Origin: a virus
Strand: one strand, 5' to 3'
IMG/VR virus record: IMGVR_UViG_3300028197_000153
Coordinates: 1 to 24,847 of that record
DNA: 24,847 nucleotides
Part shown: positions 1,705 to 19,047 of the stretch, piece by piece
How the letters are laid out: every line of letters begins with the position of its first letter
How positions within the stretch are numbered: position 1 is the stretch's first letter
Program-made: the position numbers and the translations under genes
The notes under the pieces: model-generated
The model's input: only the letters and a program-made list of their open reading frames with translations
What the model was told of the DNA's origin: nothing
Database searches by the model: none

Positions 1705-1986
1705 TTATGTTTCTATAAACTTAATATACCTCCAAGTAATTGTGTGATGTAAATGAAAATTCTCAGAAAATATATATATGTTCATAGATTGAAAAGCGGC
1801 AGAATCTTTTCTTATCTCTGGTTCGATAACTTCAATTTCAATATGTGTAAACATAAATGTAGTATGAAAATATGTTACAGTCTTTGGTCTGCCATCTATT
1901 AAAAATCTAAGTATCTGATTGTGCCGAAATAATTCGACACTGTTTAAGATTAATAATAACGATAATAGGATTACTTTAGTTTTCAT
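1705..1986 (-). CDS. membrane-anchored or exported protein just downstream of the tmRNA
   Basis: A 93-residue ORF beginning MKTKVILLSLLLILN, which is an N-terminal hydrophobic segment suited to a signal anchor or signal peptide. A polar, beta-rich remainder follows, with several aromatic and His residues. The family is not recognised. The start codon is only 3 nt beyond the tmRNA discriminator base (1990), and the upstream sequence is the tmRNA 3' acceptor, which offers no Shine-Dalgarno. Translation would therefore need an unprocessed tmRNA precursor or another start signal. A longer reading frame extends into the tmRNA (to 2034), but I reject that start because it lies inside the structured RNA. 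Confidence 0.5.
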   Translation of the reverse strand: MKTKVILLSLLLILNSVELFRHNQILRFLIDGRPKTVTYFHTTFMFTHIEIEVIEPEIRKDSAAFQSMNIYIFSENFHLHHTITWRYIKFIET

Positions 1987-1989
1987 AAG

Positions 1990-2330
1990 TGGAGGCGAGG
2001 GGAGTCGAACCCCTGTCCAGTGTAAATTCCACATAAACTTCTACATCGTTATTCTGTTGTTATTAATACTACAGACAAAACTATCAGTCTTTCCTGCGTC
2101 AAAGTGATTACACTTATCGACCTTCTTAATTCAGGTAGGACAACCCTATCCGATTATCGGAGTCAGCATAATTGGGTAAAAAGGTTTATACAACCCCTCT
2201 CACCTAAGCGGAGAGTGCTAATACAGAAGTATCGGCAATTAAAAACATAATCTCTTTTTATACTAGCCAAGAGATCAACTAGTCGATGCGATCTATATTT
2301 CTATCTACCTGTCGAAGCCTTTACGCCCCC
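1990..2330 (-). ncRNA. ssrA: tmRNA (transfer-messenger RNA)
   Basis: Rescues stalled ribosomes by adding a degradation tag, with SmpB as partner (no smpB in this window). The 5' end GGGGGCG pairs with CGCCTCC at the 3' end, leaving discriminator A at 1990; the CCA is not encoded. The 5' block GGGGGCGTAAAGGCTTCGAC fits the tmRNA consensus, and the T-arm is AGGGG-TTCGACT-CCCCT. A clear H-type pseudoknot (PK1) comes before the tag: ACTAG/CTAGT interleaved with ATCTCTT/AAGAGAT. The tag frame reads, most likely from a GCC resume codon, A-D-T-S-V-L-A-L-S-A then TAG, close to the usual ALAA-type ending. The length of 341 nt is normal. The exact resume codon is inferred. Confidence 0.95.
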
Positions 2331-2390
2331 AATGATTAGTTGTGCTAGTAATACACCAGCAGTTATTTCAAGTATATTAAATAAATTCAT
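2301..2390 (-). CDS. 29-aa hydrophobic mini-protein running into the tmRNA 5' end
   Basis: ATG at 2388-2390 overlaps the stop of the upstream ORF (ATGA), and the frame codes for a 29-residue peptide with a hydrophobic core (about residues 3-22, ending in QLIIGG). It stops at TAG (2301-2303), about 30 nt inside the tmRNA. The upstream sequence AAGGG can act as ribosome binding site. The overlap with a structured RNA is odd: either the peptide is made from a precursor transcript before tmRNA processing, or the frame is accidental. The ATGA coupling and hydrophobic composition favour a real gene, but evidence is limited. Confidence 0.45.
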   Translation of the reverse strand: MNLFNILEITAGVLLAQLIIGGVKASTGR

Positions 2391-2560
2391 ATAACCCTTT
2401 CTTCTGGTGCTTGATCGAAAAATTCTATATTTTGTCTAATTATAACAGGTGCTAGAGATTTTTCAAGTTTTTGTATTTGATAACTTTGTACAAAATTTGT
2501 TGCTATACTAGCCATAAGTAATAACCACAATATGTAAGTTGCAGGATGTATTCTGTCCAT
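2387..2560 (-). CDS. 57-aa single-span membrane protein upstream of the tmRNA
   Basis: MDRIHPATYILWLLLMASIA gives a short N-terminal tail and one membrane span (about 8-26). A polar C-terminal half with charged helix-forming residues follows (QKLEKS, then EFFDQAPEERVI). The family is not recognised. Its TGA overlaps the next ATG by 4 nt. With the 29-aa ORF and the tmRNA it seems to form one transcription unit starting from the promoter-like sequence at 2584-2611. No strong Shine-Dalgarno is visible. Confidence 0.6.
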   Translation of the reverse strand: MDRIHPATYILWLLLMASIATNFVQSYQIQKLEKSLAPVIIRQNIEFFDQAPEERVI

Positions 2561-3587: not shown

Positions 3588-4370
3588 ATGTATAAAATAT
3601 TAGCATTATTATTATTGTCTTATTTTTCTTTGTTCTCTGTTGTTTCTGCTGGAACTATAGACCCAAGTAATTCTGACAAACAATATCTAGAATATGGTGC
3701 AAAGCACGAGTGTGTTTTACCCATCATGGGTGTCTTAGGAGATGAATTAAATTCTGTCTTTCGAGGTTCTTGCGTTATTATAAATGAAAATTATGTATTA
3801 ACTGCTGCCCATGTTGTATCTAATTCTATTAATCAGTTTGTAATATATAAAGGAAAAACATATCCTGCCGCAATATCAGCAATACACGCTTTATATGACC
3901 CCAAAACATTTGGCAAACATGATATAGCATTAGTTAGACTACAAAGACCAATAAAATTAGATTTTTATCCACAATTATATGAAGAACAAGACGAAAATAA
4001 AAAAATATGCAGCATATCTGGTTTTGGATATTATGGAGATTTTAAAAAAGGTTATGGGTCTAAAAACTTCGACAATAAAAGACGAGCAGGTTCAAATGTA
4101 ATTAATAGAATAAGAGATAATATCTTAATATGCTCCATAGTTGATTCTCCAGTAACATCTCTTGAGTTTTTAATATGTTGTGGAGATAGCGGAGGAGGTC
4201 TATTCATTGACAATAAACTAGCAGGAATAAATTCATGCGTTTTTTCCGAGGACGGTAAAGCTGACTCTGATTATGGCGACTATAGTGGTCATACCAGAAT
4301 AAGCGATTACCATTTATGGATAAAAAGCACGATGGTTATAATAGAAAAAGTTTTTGTTAAATCTGATTAG
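3588..4370 (+). CDS. exported trypsin-like serine protease (S1 family)
   Basis: 260 residues with a signal peptide (MYKILALLLLSYFSLF, likely cleaved near residue 21). The catalytic triad sits in standard contexts: LTAAH (His75), HDIAL (Asp112) and CGDSGGG (Ser201). Cys198 or Cys197 and Cys217 match the trypsin 191-220 disulfide; the disulfide flanking the active-site His is absent. TRISDYHLWI near the end fits the final strand and helix of the fold. The start at 3588 follows GGAGA at a good distance and gives a clean signal peptide, whereas the frame upstream to 3528 lacks both. It is one of only two clear plus-strand genes, divergent from the zinc-ribbon gene and convergent with 4357-4605 (14-nt overlap). 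The substrate is unknown; an envelope, periplasmic or virion-processing role is inference. Confidence 0.9.
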   Translation: MYKILALLLLSYFSLFSVVSAGTIDPSNSDKQYLEYGAKHECVLPIMGVLGDELNSVFRGSCVIINENYVLTAAHVVSNSINQFVIYKGKTYPAAISAIHALYDPKTFGKHDIALVRLQRPIKLDFYPQLYEEQDENKKICSISGFGYYGDFKKGYGSKNFDNKRRAGSNVINRIRDNILICSIVDSPVTSLEFLICCGDSGGGLFIDNKLAGINSCVFSEDGKADSDYGDYSGHTRISDYHLWIKSTMVIIEKVFVKSD

Positions 4371-5022: not shown

Positions 5023-5936
5023 AAGACTAATATCCCTTCATTATATTTGGCTATTGCTTTATCTTTCATCTTTAATTCCATATCTAAATCAAAGTCTAGG
5101 CCATAAGTATTAAAAGATTTAGAGGCATAATCTGCATGTTTACGAGGATTAGGATGGTCTGGTATATTCTCACTATAGTGAAATAAAGGACGGTATTCAC
5201 CCCACGCCATATAACAATCTTCTAAGGCATCTTGTTCTGACAATCCATCTGGATGGCAAGCATGATGTAAATAGTCAAATGTTATAGGGATGTTGGTTTT
5301 CGGATGAAAGTCTTTTATCAACTGCTTAACAGACCAGCAATTAAGTTTATCGTCATTTTCAATAACAATACGATTACGACAATTATCGTCAAGTCTATAG
5401 AAATTCTGCATAAACCTTTCCACAATCTCATCGTTACTTCCTTGTCGATTGTTGATATGTAAATTCATAGGCGAATTATAATCAGCAGGACAACCTATCC
5501 TGTCAAGGAAACTACTATAAAAATTTAGTTCTGTAACGGTTCTACTAACGGCATCGGTATTGTTAGATGCTAACACATTATACTCACTAGGATGACAACT
5601 AATGCGAACATTCGTTTGTTGTATTGTGTAAGCTATTTCATCGAATGAGGCATCAATCTCGTCGTAATTAGGCAGTTCATCCCATTCTATATTTGCTGCC
5701 GTATAGGTCATTAAAGGGAAAAGATCGCTACTGATGCGATAACACAAATTGTTATTTGAACAATACTGTATCGTTGCATTGGTAACAATCATATTGTTAA
5801 GTATACGTTCTCCTAATATAGTTAGTGCTTCATCCCTATCTAATTGATTAAATCTTTTAAATGTCATAGTCTTGAACCGTAAAGGTTGTTCAAGTTCTTG
5901 TAGGTCGATAGATATACAGCATAAGCCGAAACGCAT
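5019..5936 (-). CDS. uvsE: UV-damage endonuclease (UvsE/UVDE family)
   Basis: Cuts DNA 5' to UV photoproducts and some abasic lesions, starting an alternative excision repair pathway; the fold is a metal-dependent TIM barrel. 305 residues starting MRFGLCCISIDL, which matches the family N-terminus (M-R-x-G-Y/L-x-C-I-S). Seen in order: NNNLCYRISSDLFP, RISCHPSEYNVL, MNLHINN, RIVIENDDK, PITFDYLHHACHP and LFHYSEN with later HADY. These carry the His, Glu and Asp residues expected for metal binding. AGGAG lies 8 nt upstream. An in-frame extension to 5984 contains the promoter and is rejected. Confidence 0.93.
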   Translation of the reverse strand: MRFGLCCISIDLQELEQPLRFKTMTFKRFNQLDRDEALTILGERILNNMIVTNATIQYCSNNNLCYRISSDLFPLMTYTAANIEWDELPNYDEIDASFDEIAYTIQQTNVRISCHPSEYNVLASNNTDAVSRTVTELNFYSSFLDRIGCPADYNSPMNLHINNRQGSNDEIVERFMQNFYRLDDNCRNRIVIENDDKLNCWSVKQLIKDFHPKTNIPITFDYLHHACHPDGLSEQDALEDCYMAWGEYRPLFHYSENIPDHPNPRKHADYASKSFNTYGLDFDLDMELKMKDKAIAKYNEGILVL

Positions 5937-8828: not shown

Positions 8829-9053
8829 TTAATTAGACTCTGTAGCTTGTGGTTTAGAAAACAATTTCTGAAGTGATTCTAGTTTTGATGTATTGCTTTC
8901 TAACATATCCATATAATTATCGAGTACTTCAACTATATCTGGATGTTCGCCTATCCCCACAGATTTATTAATATATAATTCTAATACTGCCACCGACTCA
9001 TCTATCTTTGCTTTATATTTAGATTCCAAAGCCTTATAGAATAAATTATCCAT
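8829..9053 (-). CDS. 74-aa helical protein, unknown
   Basis: Starts MDNLFYKALESKYKAK; acidic and probably coiled-coil near the C-terminus (MDMLESNTSKLESLQKLF). Its ATG lies inside the last codons of the 37-aa ORF upstream (overlap 9046-9053), suggesting coupled translation. No family recognised. Confidence 0.65.
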   Translation of the reverse strand: MDNLFYKALESKYKAKIDESVAVLELYINKSVGIGEHPDIVEVLDNYMDMLESNTSKLESLQKLFSKPQATESN

Positions 9054-9159
9054 TTATAATTTCTCCGCTTATAATATATGTGAAAGTAAACTCTTGTTGA
9101 CCCTTGGGTATTTCTATAGTATCCTTAGAATCTTCTTTGTCAATTGATTTATCGTTCAT
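9046..9159 (-). CDS. 37-aa acidic mini-protein
   Basis: Starts MNDKSIDKEDSKDTIEIP, ends in a beta-like segment (QEFTFTYIISGEIING). The start lies 11 nt after the previous gene; no strong Shine-Dalgarno is seen. The overlap with the next start supports it being translated. Unrecognised. Confidence 0.5.
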   Translation of the reverse strand: MNDKSIDKEDSKDTIEIPKGQQEFTFTYIISGEIING

Positions 9160-9170
9160 AATGTAGTCCT

Positions 9171-9347
9171 TTATTCGTCAAATAAATATGCATCTATTTC
9201 TTTTGTTGTTTCCTTGGGAGTAATAATAGGAGTATAAATAATAGTTTCTTTATTATTGGTAGAAAATATTGAAACAATTATACATACTGATCCAACGAGA
9301 AAGAGTAATGATAATACTGTGAGTATCACGCATCCTGAAGTTTCCAT
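9171..9347 (-). CDS. 58-aa single-span membrane protein
   Basis: Starts METSGCVILTVLSLLF with a span at about residues 6-28 and an acidic, Thr/Pro-rich tail (TPIITPKETTKE). The start directly follows the stop of the Pro/Tyr-rich gene, with GAG about 8 nt upstream. A longer frame to 9431 runs through the coding region of that gene in another frame and is rejected. Function unknown. Confidence 0.6.
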   Translation of the reverse strand: METSGCVILTVLSLLFLVGSVCIIVSIFSTNNKETIIYTPIITPKETTKEIDAYLFDE

Positions 9348-9349
9348 GA

Positions 9350-9628
9350 TTATCTCACGTATAAAGGCTGATAATACCACTGTAATTGTGGCTGATAAGT
9401 AATTTGTCTTTCTTTTCTTAGAAACCAACAACGTCTTTCTGTTACTACTGGAACATTATAATAATAAGGAACCCATCCATAAACCACAGTCGGTGCTGGT
9501 AGCACATACGTAACAGCAGGAACAGGGGTTGTTACTATCATTGGTGGTGCTGGTACGCTCGCTACCCACTCACCAGTATAGCCTATTGAACCCCATAGTG
9601 CAACTGTTAAAAATAAAAACGTCCTCAT
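9350..9628 (-). CDS. exported Pro/Val/Tyr-rich protein
   Basis: 92 residues with a signal peptide (MRTFLFLTVALWGSIGYTG). A low-complexity Val/Pro/Ala/Thr region follows (VPAPPMIVTTPVPAVTYV), then VVYGWVPYYYNVPVVTERR, a basic patch (RKER) and a Tyr/Gln/Pro end (YQPQLQWYYQPLYVR). Such compositions occur in small exported planctomycete proteins, from memory. It may be a surface or periplasmic structural protein. The internal start is supported by AAGGA 7 nt upstream. Confidence 0.65.
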   Translation of the reverse strand: MRTFLFLTVALWGSIGYTGEWVASVPAPPMIVTTPVPAVTYVLPAPTVVYGWVPYYYNVPVVTERRCWFLRKERQITYQPQLQWYYQPLYVR

Positions 9629-14921: not shown

Positions 14922-15028
14922 AATCTTTTCTCCTTTTTAAAAGGATACACCATGAGTAAACATAAACATCTAGGTATAGATAATAAGAAATAAAGAATAC
15001 TTAATAAAAGTCTAATAATAATAGTCAT
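14918..15028 (-). CDS. 36-aa membrane micro-protein inside the cytochrome operon
   Basis: MTIIIRLLLSILYFLLSIPR then CLCLLMVYPFKKEKRL: one hydrophobic helix, two close Cys (C21, C23) and a basic end. Both ends overlap neighbours by ATGA (ferredoxin before, basic protein after), so it is probably translated. The last codons hold the Shine-Dalgarno of the next gene. It could be only a coupling ORF. Confidence 0.55.
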   Translation of the reverse strand: MTIIIRLLLSILYFLLSIPRCLCLLMVYPFKKEKRL

Positions 15029-15402
15029 TTTTTACCTTTTAAATCTGCTATATTCTGTGCTATGTCTACTAATCTATCCCAGTTTTCATCTATATATTTT
15101 TCTGGCCCACCCATATCGGCCTGTGCTACTGCAATCTCTTCGGTAGGAACCATCTCAATAGCATCCCAAGGACAAACTTTAACATCATACATTTTACCCT
15201 TGTTGCCGGGAACGTGTATACATTGTTCACAACCTATGCAAGTAGATAGATCAATCTCACACCATTGAGTTACTCCCTGTTTTATCTGGAATATACAATC
15301 AACAGGACATACTTCTAAGCAAGCCTCACATCCAGTACAATTATCTGCTTGAATAATTGCTAATTCTTTAGGAATTTTTTTTCTTGGTTTCTTGTTTGCC
15401 AT
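15025..15402 (-). CDS. 2x[4Fe-4S] dicluster ferredoxin
   Basis: Electron carrier with 125 residues. C22-x2-C25-x2-C28-x3-C32-P and C55-x2-C58-x2-C61-x15-C77-P give two clusters (22/25/28/77 and 55/58/61/32), with extra Cys at 36 and 48. The second motif has a long insert (HVPGNKGKMYDVK) before CPWDAIEMVPTEE. Similar inserts occur, from memory, in planctomycete ferredoxins. No signal peptide, so cytoplasmic. The C-terminal helix NWDRLVDIAQNIADLKGKK may contact a partner. The ATG overlaps the DUF1501 stop by one base (TAATG). The partner is unknown. Confidence 0.9.
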   Translation of the reverse strand: MANKKPRKKIPKELAIIQADNCTGCEACLEVCPVDCIFQIKQGVTQWCEIDLSTCIGCEQCIHVPGNKGKMYDVKVCPWDAIEMVPTEEIAVAQADMGGPEKYIDENWDRLVDIAQNIADLKGKK

Positions 15403-16697
15403 TATGCTATAATATCGTGTTGAATATTTCCAAATACATCAGTTAATCTAAAATCTCTACCACTATATCTGTATGTTAATTTACTATGGTCAATACCCAC
15501 TAGATGTAATATAGTAGCATGTAGATCGTGCATGTCCATTGAGTCTACTGCTTTATGTCCAAAGTCATCAGTAGAACCATATCTTATACCACCTTTAATA
15601 CCTCCTCCTGCCATCCACATAGAGAATCCACCATTGTTATGATCTCTGCCTGTAGCACCTTCTTTTATGCCGGGGGTTCTACCAAACTCACTTCCAAATA
15701 ATATAATTGTGTCTTCAAATAATCCAGAATCTTTTAAGTCTTGTATCAAAGCGGCGATAGGTTTATCAATAGCAGTTGTATTCTTTTTTAAATTATCATT
15801 AATATTCTGGTGCATATCCCAACCACCATGACCAATCTCTACAAACCTTACTCCTGCTTCACTAAATTTCTTAGCTAATAAACATTGTTTACCAAATTTA
15901 GCCGTGGCTTTATCGTTGATACCATACTTTTGTAAAGTTTCTTGTGATTCTTTTGATATGTCAACAGTATTAGGAACACTTGTCTGCATCCTAAAAGCTA
16001 ACTCATAACTCTCAATCAATCCTTCTAACCTACTGTTCTCCGCACCATCTTTTAGGTGCATCTGATTAAAGTCTCTTAATAAATCTAAATCTTTTCTTTG
16101 TCTATCTTTTGTTGTAGATTGATTTACCAAATTAGGTATAGGGCTTTTACTACCAGCATTAATAGCAGTACCTTGATATATTGCCGGTAAGAAAGAACTA
16201 CCATAATTATCAGGCCCAATACCAGCATCTATAGTTAGAAATCCCGGTAACTCTTTATTCTCTGTGCCTAATCCATACAATAACCAACTGCCCATACTAG
16301 GTCTACTGAATTGAAAATTACCAGTATGTAATAAACTTCTGGCTTGATTATGATTACCTGTTTTACTTTTCATACCATTAAGCAAACATAAATCATCTGC
16401 ATGTTTACGCAAGTGTGGAAAGTTTTCACTAATCTCTATGCCACTATCTCCTGCTGGAGTTAAAGGCACTGCCGGTTTCATAATCTTCCTGCCTTTACTT
16501 ACAGGATCATCTATACCCGCTTTTTCTACCATTAAAGGTTTATGATCAAAAGTATCTGTATGAGTCATACCACCATTCATATACATGAATATAACTCTTT
16601 TATTACTTTTCATAGCCTCTTCTGCCATCAATCCTTTTAAGGCTAACATGCCGAAACCGAAACTACTAGCCTGTAATAAATTTCTTCTATTTAACAT
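15402..16697 (-). CDS. DUF1501 family Tat-exported protein
   Basis: 431 residues, full length. The N-terminus MLNRRNLLQASSFGFGMLAL is a twin-arginine signal. DUF1501 proteins resemble alkaline phosphatase/sulfatase-fold enzymes and are abundant in planctomycetes; their reaction is unknown. Seen in order: VIFMYMNGGMTHTDTFDHKP, FPHLRKHADDLCLLN, HNQARSLLHTG, FVEIGHGGWDMH, FGSEFGRTP, GRDHNNGGFSMWMAGGGIKGG, DLHATILHLVGIDH and YSGRDFRLTDV. The His and Asp residues in GGWDMH and GRDHN are those expected for metal binding. It overlaps the cytochrome gene by 11 nt, as in planctomycete DUF1553-DUF1501 pairs. Confidence 0.95.
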   Translation of the reverse strand: MLNRRNLLQASSFGFGMLALKGLMAEEAMKSNKRVIFMYMNGGMTHTDTFDHKPLMVEKAGIDDPVSKGRKIMKPAVPLTPAGDSGIEISENFPHLRKHADDLCLLNGMKSKTGNHNQARSLLHTGNFQFSRPSMGSWLLYGLGTENKELPGFLTIDAGIGPDNYGSSFLPAIYQGTAINAGSKSPIPNLVNQSTTKDRQRKDLDLLRDFNQMHLKDGAENSRLEGLIESYELAFRMQTSVPNTVDISKESQETLQKYGINDKATAKFGKQCLLAKKFSEAGVRFVEIGHGGWDMHQNINDNLKKNTTAIDKPIAALIQDLKDSGLFEDTIILFGSEFGRTPGIKEGATGRDHNNGGFSMWMAGGGIKGGIRYGSTDDFGHKAVDSMDMHDLHATILHLVGIDHSKLTYRYSGRDFRLTDVFGNIQHDIIA

Positions 16698-19047
16698 TGC
16701 GAAATTCTCCTGTGCAGATTATAATTTGTATAAACTTAGCAAGATTGTCGCTTTGTTTAATAAACTCTATAGATTTTTTATTTTCTTGTTCTGTAGGTGG
16801 ACGACCTAAAAATTTAAGGAATATACTATTAACATTGTTACGATGTAATATATCAGGCATTGTTTTACCCATCTTTTTATTACTCTCAAGTAATATTTTT
16901 GCTTCTTCTTGTGCTAATGCTATGATCTTAGGATTGTTCATAAGAAATAATGCTTGAGTAGAAACTGTTGTTACGCTTCTTTCAGCATTAAGTAAACTAT
17001 TATCTGGTCTATCAAATATATCCAGTACCTCAACCTTATTATCTCTTAATGAAGGAATGTAAATTGATCTTGATTTTGTCTCACCAATATACTTTCTTAA
17101 TTGTTTGCTAGGATCTTTTATATCTTGTTGAAAATCACTGATGTTCTTATGCGATCCGTCTAGCTTACCTGATACAAATAATAATGAATCCCTAATTTGT
17201 TCAGCCTCTAATCTTTTCTCATTCATTCTCCAGAAATAAATATTGTCAGGATCAATCTCATAATTATGTTTATCAAACTTGCTACTACGCTTATACGCAT
17301 TACTCATAACAATAGTTTTAATAAGTCTTTTATTTGATAGTCTACCCGTAATAAACTTAGTAGATAAATAGTTCATAAGTTTAAGATTAGTAGGCTCTCC
17401 ACCTAGTATACCAAAGTTATCAAAACTGTCTAGTATACCCTTACCAAACAAATGTCTCCATACTCTATTTACATGAACCCTATAAGTAAGTGGATTAGTT
17501 TTATGAGTTATCCATTCTGCAAACTCATATCGTCCGCTGGTATTATCAAAATCAAGATTAGGTCTATCGCTAAATATTTCTGGTAATCTTCTTGGTACTT
17601 CATCACCTAGATTATTAACCTCTCCTCTGATAGCTAATTTAACTTCTGTCATCTTATCTTTATCTTTGACAGACATTACAGGTTCTAAATGTTCTAAGTA
17701 TTTTAAATACTCTTCTGATAACTTAGCCTTTGCTTCATCTAACTGTTTTTGTCTCCTTCCTAATTCTCTATTCAGTTGTTGTTCTGTTACTCTTTTATTC
17801 CATGTTTTAATAGACTCTATCTGTCTCTCTAAGTTTTTAATATCGCACAACAGAAACCATTCCTGTATCTTTTTCTTCTTATATAAACCTTCTGTCTCTT
17901 TTGTTACTAGATAGCCATAGTCTCCTAAATACCCTGTATTATTATTACCTCTGTAAAGACCATCTAAATTTTCAGTATTATTAAACACACCAGCAACACC
18001 ATAATAATCCTGCTGAGAAAAAGGATCAAACTTATGATCGTGGCATCTTGCACAACTTAAAGTCATACCTAGAAAACCTCTAGTAATAACATCTATCTGG
18101 TCATCATTACGATCTGCTACAAACTGTTTAGTTTGTGCCTGTATATTTTTAGTGCCTATTGTTAAAAAACCTGTAGCTATCCTATTCTTATTATATTCTT
18201 CATAACTTTTATGTGGCAATAGATCGCCAGCTATTTGTTCTTTTATAAATTGATCGTATGGTTTGTCATCATTAAAACTTTTAATAATATAATCTCTATA
18301 CCTCCAAGCATACGGACTAACTAAATTTCTATCTTGACCAGATGATTCTGCATATCTTGCAACGTCTAGCCAATGTCTTCCCCATTTTTCTCCAAATCCA
18401 TCGTCCTGCAATAAACCATCAACTAACTTCTCATACTTATCTTCTGATGTATTATTCGTATAATCTTTTATTTGTTCAATACTAGGTGGTAAGCCAATAA
18501 GATCGAAATAAAGCCTACGGACAATAGTATAATCATCTGCTACCTCTACTGATTTTAATTTGTGTTTTTCTATTTCTAAATTTAATATAGCATCTATCTC
18601 TGTACCATCGTCATATTTAGCTACAGGAGGTTTAGTTACCTTTTTAAATGCCCAGAAATTTCTAGCTTGTCTTAGTTCTACAGCCCTGTTCTCAGACTTA
18701 TATCTTGGGTCAGGCATACCCATTTTAATCCATTGTCTAAAATTGTTGACAACTTCTTCACTTAAAGGATTATCTGGTGGCATATCTCCAGACTCAATAT
18801 AGTCTAATAATAAACTCTCGTCCATCTTACCGGGAACAACTGATGGGCCAGAATCTCCACCATTTAATATTCCTTGTCTAGTATCTACAGACAATCCACC
18901 CTTAACATCTTTAGAATTAGAAGAATGACAAGAATAACATTGAGTATTTAAAACTGGTCGTATATTTTTCTCAAAAAACTTAATACCAGAATCTTGAGCG
19001 AATACTGATCCAGATAGTAATATAAAAAGAATACAGGAAAGTCGCAT
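16687..19047 (-). CDS. planctomycete-type cytochrome PSCyt1-DUF1549-DUF1553 protein
   Basis: 786 residues with signal peptide MRLSCILFILLSGSVFA. PSCyt1 domain (about 25-120): haem motif C37-YSC-H41, GGDSGPSVVPGKMDESLL and the axial-Met-like GDMPP. DUF1549/PSCyt2 (about 140-360): RRLYFDLIGLPPS, FGEKWGRHWLDVARYAESSG, YAWRYRDYIIKSFNDDKPYD, IAGDLLP, and a second CxxCH site LSCARCHDHKFDP. DUF1553/PSD1 (about 500-760): RYEFAEWITHKTNPLTYRV, VNRVWRHLFGKGI, AYKRSSK, LEAEQIRDSLLFVSGKLD and ALFLMNNP. It would need host cytochrome c maturation outside the cytoplasm. First gene of the operon; AGGAGG before the ATG. Enzymatic role unknown. The length is within the family's usual range. Confidence 0.95.
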   Translation of the reverse strand: MRLSCILFILLSGSVFAQDSGIKFFEKNIRPVLNTQCYSCHSSNSKDVKGGLSVDTRQGILNGGDSGPSVVPGKMDESLLLDYIESGDMPPDNPLSEEVVNNFRQWIKMGMPDPRYKSENRAVELRQARNFWAFKKVTKPPVAKYDDGTEIDAILNLEIEKHKLKSVEVADDYTIVRRLYFDLIGLPPSIEQIKDYTNNTSEDKYEKLVDGLLQDDGFGEKWGRHWLDVARYAESSGQDRNLVSPYAWRYRDYIIKSFNDDKPYDQFIKEQIAGDLLPHKSYEEYNKNRIATGFLTIGTKNIQAQTKQFVADRNDDQIDVITRGFLGMTLSCARCHDHKFDPFSQQDYYGVAGVFNNTENLDGLYRGNNNTGYLGDYGYLVTKETEGLYKKKKIQEWFLLCDIKNLERQIESIKTWNKRVTEQQLNRELGRRQKQLDEAKAKLSEEYLKYLEHLEPVMSVKDKDKMTEVKLAIRGEVNNLGDEVPRRLPEIFSDRPNLDFDNTSGRYEFAEWITHKTNPLTYRVHVNRVWRHLFGKGILDSFDNFGILGGEPTNLKLMNYLSTKFITGRLSNKRLIKTIVMSNAYKRSSKFDKHNYEIDPDNIYFWRMNEKRLEAEQIRDSLLFVSGKLDGSHKNISDFQQDIKDPSKQLRKYIGETKSRSIYIPSLRDNKVEVLDIFDRPDNSLLNAERSVTTVSTQALFLMNNPKIIALAQEEAKILLESNKKMGKTMPDILHRNNVNSIFLKFLGRPPTEQENKKSIEFIKQSDNLAKFIQIIICTGEFRNVK

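Follow-up and report, generated by a model that had tools for sequence, protein, structure and literature searches.

Trans-translation is established for the tmRNA family (PMC4131195, a review), and complete tmRNA genes were reported from large phages, namely the mycobacteriophages Bxz1 and Wildcat, Bacillus phage G, and the OM43 phage Melnitz (PMC4131195, PMC9004378). In addition to an earlier list of phage tmRNAs (PMC4131195), a 2022 survey found tmRNA genes in 402 of 18,146 phage genomes, about 2% (PMC9004378), so that the first-pass annotation of the present DNA, which held that phage tmRNAs are known only in some large phages, understated their occurrence. The stretch of DNA analysed here, referred to as the window, was a virus record of 24,847 bases. 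It contained a complete one-piece tmRNA gene (1989–2330, minus strand), which is an ordinary phage-encoded tmRNA and thus an already known kind of phage gene.

The tmRNA was the sole RNA gene called in the window by ARAGORN, with the tag ADTSVLALSA followed by a stop. The covariance model RF00023 matched positions 1987–2330 of the minus strand over its full length (model positions 1–374), with a score of 99.2 bits against a gathering threshold of 47 and an E-value of 6.1e-38. A complete phage-borne tmRNA with acceptor, T-arm, PK1, and tag reading frame had been claimed in the first-pass annotation, which gave no strand and named these two programs as the check; both agreed on the gene and placed it on the minus strand.

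The acceptor stem was formed by the 5′ strand GGGGGCG (2324–2330), which includes G3, and the 3′ strand CGCCTCC (1991–1997), in which U70 pairs with G3. The discriminator was the adenine at 1990, and CCA was not encoded, ACTT standing in its place. An alanine-type tRNA-like domain was present, and the G3–U70 pair was kept in 20 of 20 phage tmRNAs. The T-arm, AGGGG-TTCGACT-CCCCT (1998–2014, minus strand), had five of five pairs invariant across the 20 sequences. The PK1 pseudoknot (2250–2283, minus strand), located upstream of the tag, was composed of the stems ACTAG/CTAGT and ATCTCT/AGAGAT, and both stems showed compensating changes among the 20 phage tmRNAs.

In the alignment of these tmRNAs, 96.7% of the cells in the acceptor, T-stem, and PK1 helices were paired. 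Double-sided changes were found in 20 cells of these helices, compared with 4.0 in shuffles and 0–2 in slid controls; the slid control carries the weight, because the kinship of the sequences inflates the shuffle comparison. All six pairs with double-sided changes were located within PK1. The letters of a PK1 stem differed by subgroup (ACTAG/CTAGT, ACTGG/CCAGT, and GGTAG/CTACC), and pairing was kept in each. Over the downstream pseudoknots PK2–PK4, the RF00023 match had low posterior values.

Relatives were fetched with DUF1501 and DNA-ligase queries, which gave 41 viral loci on contigs of up to 195 kb, and a tmRNA was found by ARAGORN and Rfam in most of the loci that reached this region. A degenerate tag pattern matched 39 viral contigs, of which 38 carried the tag family of the window; the remaining one (L094) read ADTTVFALAA and had no tmRNA call. 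A second, divergent tag type of the group, GETQLALAA, occurred in L033 and L038. The tmRNA of L041 (near 9017–9360, tag at 9112) was not called by ARAGORN, and its T-loop was GGCAGTA in place of TTCGACT, with the stem arms intact. No tmRNA match was obtained in a 171-kb relative (G006), which indicates that the gene is dispensable. When the tmRNA was compared by BLAST with 50,697 phage records, only the T-arm stretch was matched, with no closer DNA match.

A search of 84,980 bacterial and archaeal genomes with the degenerate tag pattern gave one match, a contig in a Flavobacteriales MAG (L059, NZWA01000052.1). This contig had its phage genes in common with the window and, judged by this gene content, is a phage contig misbinned into the MAG. 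The same tmRNA in a bacterial chromosome amid host genes, which the first-pass annotation had named as the case against a phage gene, was not found in these genomes. The virus record, the 38 viral contigs with the tag, and the misbinned origin of the single genome match assign the gene to the phage. It was also considered whether the window could be a bacterial chromosome or a prophage edge, with the tmRNA being the host's own ssrA. The ssrA gene is a common integration site, and the window has DUF1501 and PSCyt1/PSCyt2/PSD1 genes, which are typical of bacterial chromosomes. However, the genes around the tmRNA are phage genes, some 40 viral contigs of up to 195 kb share it, the tag was absent from the bacterial chromosomes searched, and the DUF1501 gene itself was 79–100% identical over 18 virus loci, which makes a host ssrA extremely improbable.

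Apart from the tmRNA, the window carried mainly short ORFs of phage type that shared its strand, with many unknowns. The window also encoded ThyX, UvdE, a DNA-glycosylase-like protein, and a ligase with homology to DNA ligases annotated in phages. Ferredoxin-like, DUF1501, and PSCyt1-PSCyt2-PSD1 genes, a type of row typical of bacterial chromosomes, stood side by side at 15025–19047 (minus strand). The row was conserved in the virus group, had no match among the 50,697 phage records, and may possibly be an auxiliary metabolic operon.

The tag frame (2204–2236, minus strand, codons read from 2236 to 2204) encoded ADTSVLALSA and a stop, as the first-pass annotation had read it. As in the tmRNA family, the C-terminus of the tag was small and hydrophobic. 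The base that gives serine in place of alanine was located at window position 2212, the codon being TCC in the window and in one further contig (L097), and GCC in the nearest relatives, whose tag was ADTSVLALAA. Among the tag-bearing contigs, the ALSA ending occurred only in these two, which were 99.99% identical across 9,956 bases and are therefore two assemblies of one virus. A sequencing error was an unlikely source of the serine, the same base being present in L097, though the two samples may not be independent. The remaining variation of the tag codons among relatives was synonymous (TCT/TCC and GCC/GCT). The long tags reported by ARAGORN in several loci (ASLKIDQ...) did not represent a different tag but an alternative reading, because the ADTSVLALAA frame was also intact in those loci.

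The first-pass annotation had suggested that the ALSA ending could give tagged proteins another fate. The ending was borne out by two assemblies, and ClpX contacts the tag in part through the penultimate alanine (PMC7652416); a serine at this position might shield tagged peptides from ClpXP or route them to another protease. This proposal did not hold up well and was considered highly improbable, marginally more so than the decoy role discussed below: the ending arose by a single GCC to TCC change in one virus, and ALAA was kept by all other relatives, which indicates that selection in the phage group favours the ordinary ending. In E. coli ClpXP, moreover, substitutions of the penultimate alanine (the substituting residues are not stated in the text of the source) raise KM and affect Vmax little (PMC7652416). 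By analogy, the serine is expected to be a recent point change that would modestly weaken ClpXP binding and degradation without a new function, and the ALSA change by itself has little importance.

SmpB was not found in nine related contigs of 117–195 kb, which are possibly incomplete, whereas the same search was positive in 10 of 14 control genomes. The RNA therefore most likely relies on host SmpB, AlaRS, EF-Tu, and Clp proteases, as in ordinary trans-translation, and we infer this activity for the tmRNA of the window. The tmRNA is quite probably a normal one-piece phage tmRNA in this sense. Host enzymes would trim it from the phage transcript and then add CCA, and host AlaRS would charge it. 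Host SmpB and EF-Tu would bring it to stalled ribosomes, where ADTSVLALSA would be added, and the tagged product would pass to host Clp proteases. Ribosomes would thereby be kept free during infection, as broken mRNAs accumulate.

The lack of a detected phage SmpB in the nine contigs would also suit a decoy that mainly competes with the host tmRNA for SmpB and blunts rescue, the tag being unimportant; a tmRNA-like fragment of phage DS6A was discussed as an SmpB-titrating inhibitor (PMC4131195). However, the tag codons of relatives showed only synonymous changes and the frame was also kept in the divergent GETQLALAA type, and a decoy would need neither. The retained frame argues, at the level of sequence, for real tagging rather than a mere decoy, which was regarded as very unlikely. 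A CLP_protease-family gene was present in six of the nine large contigs, but it was not counted as support for a phage-encoded ClpP as the tagging partner; a prohead protease is likelier, because the gene adjoins the terminase in one of them (G004). A group of large uncultured phages keeps a functional-looking tmRNA with a tag apparently under selection, the SmpB gene not being found in them. This fits the view that large phages provide the RNA parts of ribosome rescue and the host provides the proteins.

A Flavobacteriales host inferred from the tag was rejected. The contig with the matching tag (L059) has the phage genes of the window, and the MAG that holds it has its own tmRNA tag, GENNYALAA; this contamination could mislead host prediction. 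Flavobacteriales tmRNAs ended in ALAA in 30 of 30 cases. Shine-Dalgarno-like sites preceded 49% of the phage genes compared with 12% in shuffles, whereas in Flavobacteriales loci the values were 6% and 7%, not above chance, which also speaks against a Flavobacteriales host. DUF1501 identity was non-discriminating as a host marker, reaching 48% in Bacteroidota genomes and 44% in a Singulisphaera (Planctomycetota) plasmid. A planctomycete host is possible.

The gene upstream of the tmRNA varied between relatives and often ended exactly at the tmRNA. In the window, a small membrane-like ORF of 57 aa (2387–2560, minus strand) was located upstream, and in three relatives (L026, L031, and L042) the stop codon TAA of the same ORF directly abutted the tmRNA. 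In L011 and L017, DUF1501 was directly upstream, and the G of its TAG was base 1 of the tmRNA; an IMP-dehydrogenase-like gene (family read by eye) ended in the same way in L065 and L080. DUF1501 too had several different following genes in other contigs, which indicates that the reshuffling of single genes is widespread here and not necessarily specific to the tmRNA. A window-private insertion of about 60 bases created a 29-aa ORF, MNLFNILEITAGVLLAQLIIGGVKASTGR (2301–2390, minus strand), which overlapped the upstream stop codon and ended 30 bases within the tmRNA; it was absent from the relatives compared. A consensus-like promoter site for the tmRNA within the upstream ORF (2466–2439, minus strand) was a candidate only, the region having 4 such sites compared with 6.5 in shuffles.

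L022 had a conserved leader (3735–3948) of about 214 bases that was shared by at least eight related loci. It lay immediately before the tmRNA in L022, L023, L025, L059, L074, and others, and before a phosphoribosyltransferase-like gene in L068. The L022 leader matched the manA RNA (RF01745) end to end, but at 21.5 bits the score was far lower than the gathering threshold of 55.2 (E-value 0.0012), and no match to this model was obtained for L059, L074, and L012.

Downstream of the tmRNA, a conserved small ORF beginning with MKTKVILL (1705–1986, minus strand; no Pfam match) had an ATG 4 bases past the discriminator. The listed version of this ORF was 109 aa long and started from an ATG inside the tmRNA, and the ATG 4 bases after the discriminator is more likely to be the real start. 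If the tmRNA were trimmed out, the mRNA of this ORF would be nearly leaderless. A small ORF at this distance was common among the relatives, and elsewhere that ORF came after other genes.

The ligase and tmRNA trees conflicted over L033, and so did the pairwise identities. When the ligase row of L042, which was out of frame, was disregarded, the DNA ligase of L033 was 87–91% identical to those of most of the group, whereas its tmRNA was only 61–63% identical. Conversely, the L033 tmRNA was 74% identical to that of L038, which shares its tag type, and the ligases of these two were 57% identical. A divergent tmRNA allele apparently replaced the original one at 5336–5686 of L033, the ligase and the downstream ORF belonging to the ADTSVLALAA group. 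In L024 (2020–2532) and L041 (8532–9032), the gene immediately upstream of the tmRNA encoded an HNH endonuclease; the L024 gene matched Pfam HNH_4 (2.5e-9), contained a helix-turn-helix, and had an end that overlapped the initial 26 bases of the tmRNA. Homing by the HNH endonuclease would be a reasonable guess from this arrangement. The tmRNA of the group might be a mobile gene, inserted exactly between the stop and start codons of differing neighbours, allele-replaced in one member, and spread by an adjoining upstream homing endonuclease; this reading was considered rather unlikely. If homing of the tmRNA were shown, the shifting position and the HNH neighbour would outweigh the ALSA ending in importance.

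The tmRNA of the window shared with the one-piece tmRNA (ssrA) of RF00023 the acceptor with G3–U70, the T-arm, PK1, and the tag frame with its stop, in an end-to-end match. It differed in its tag, ADTSVLALSA, and in its lower score of 99 bits, compared with up to 177 bits for the best Flavobacteriales chromosomal tmRNAs. The tmRNA of Melnitz is located near thyX (PMC9004378), and the window also has ThyX. However, the Melnitz tmRNA is a two-piece molecule under a glutamine riboswitch, whereas that of the window is a one-piece tmRNA packed between coding genes.
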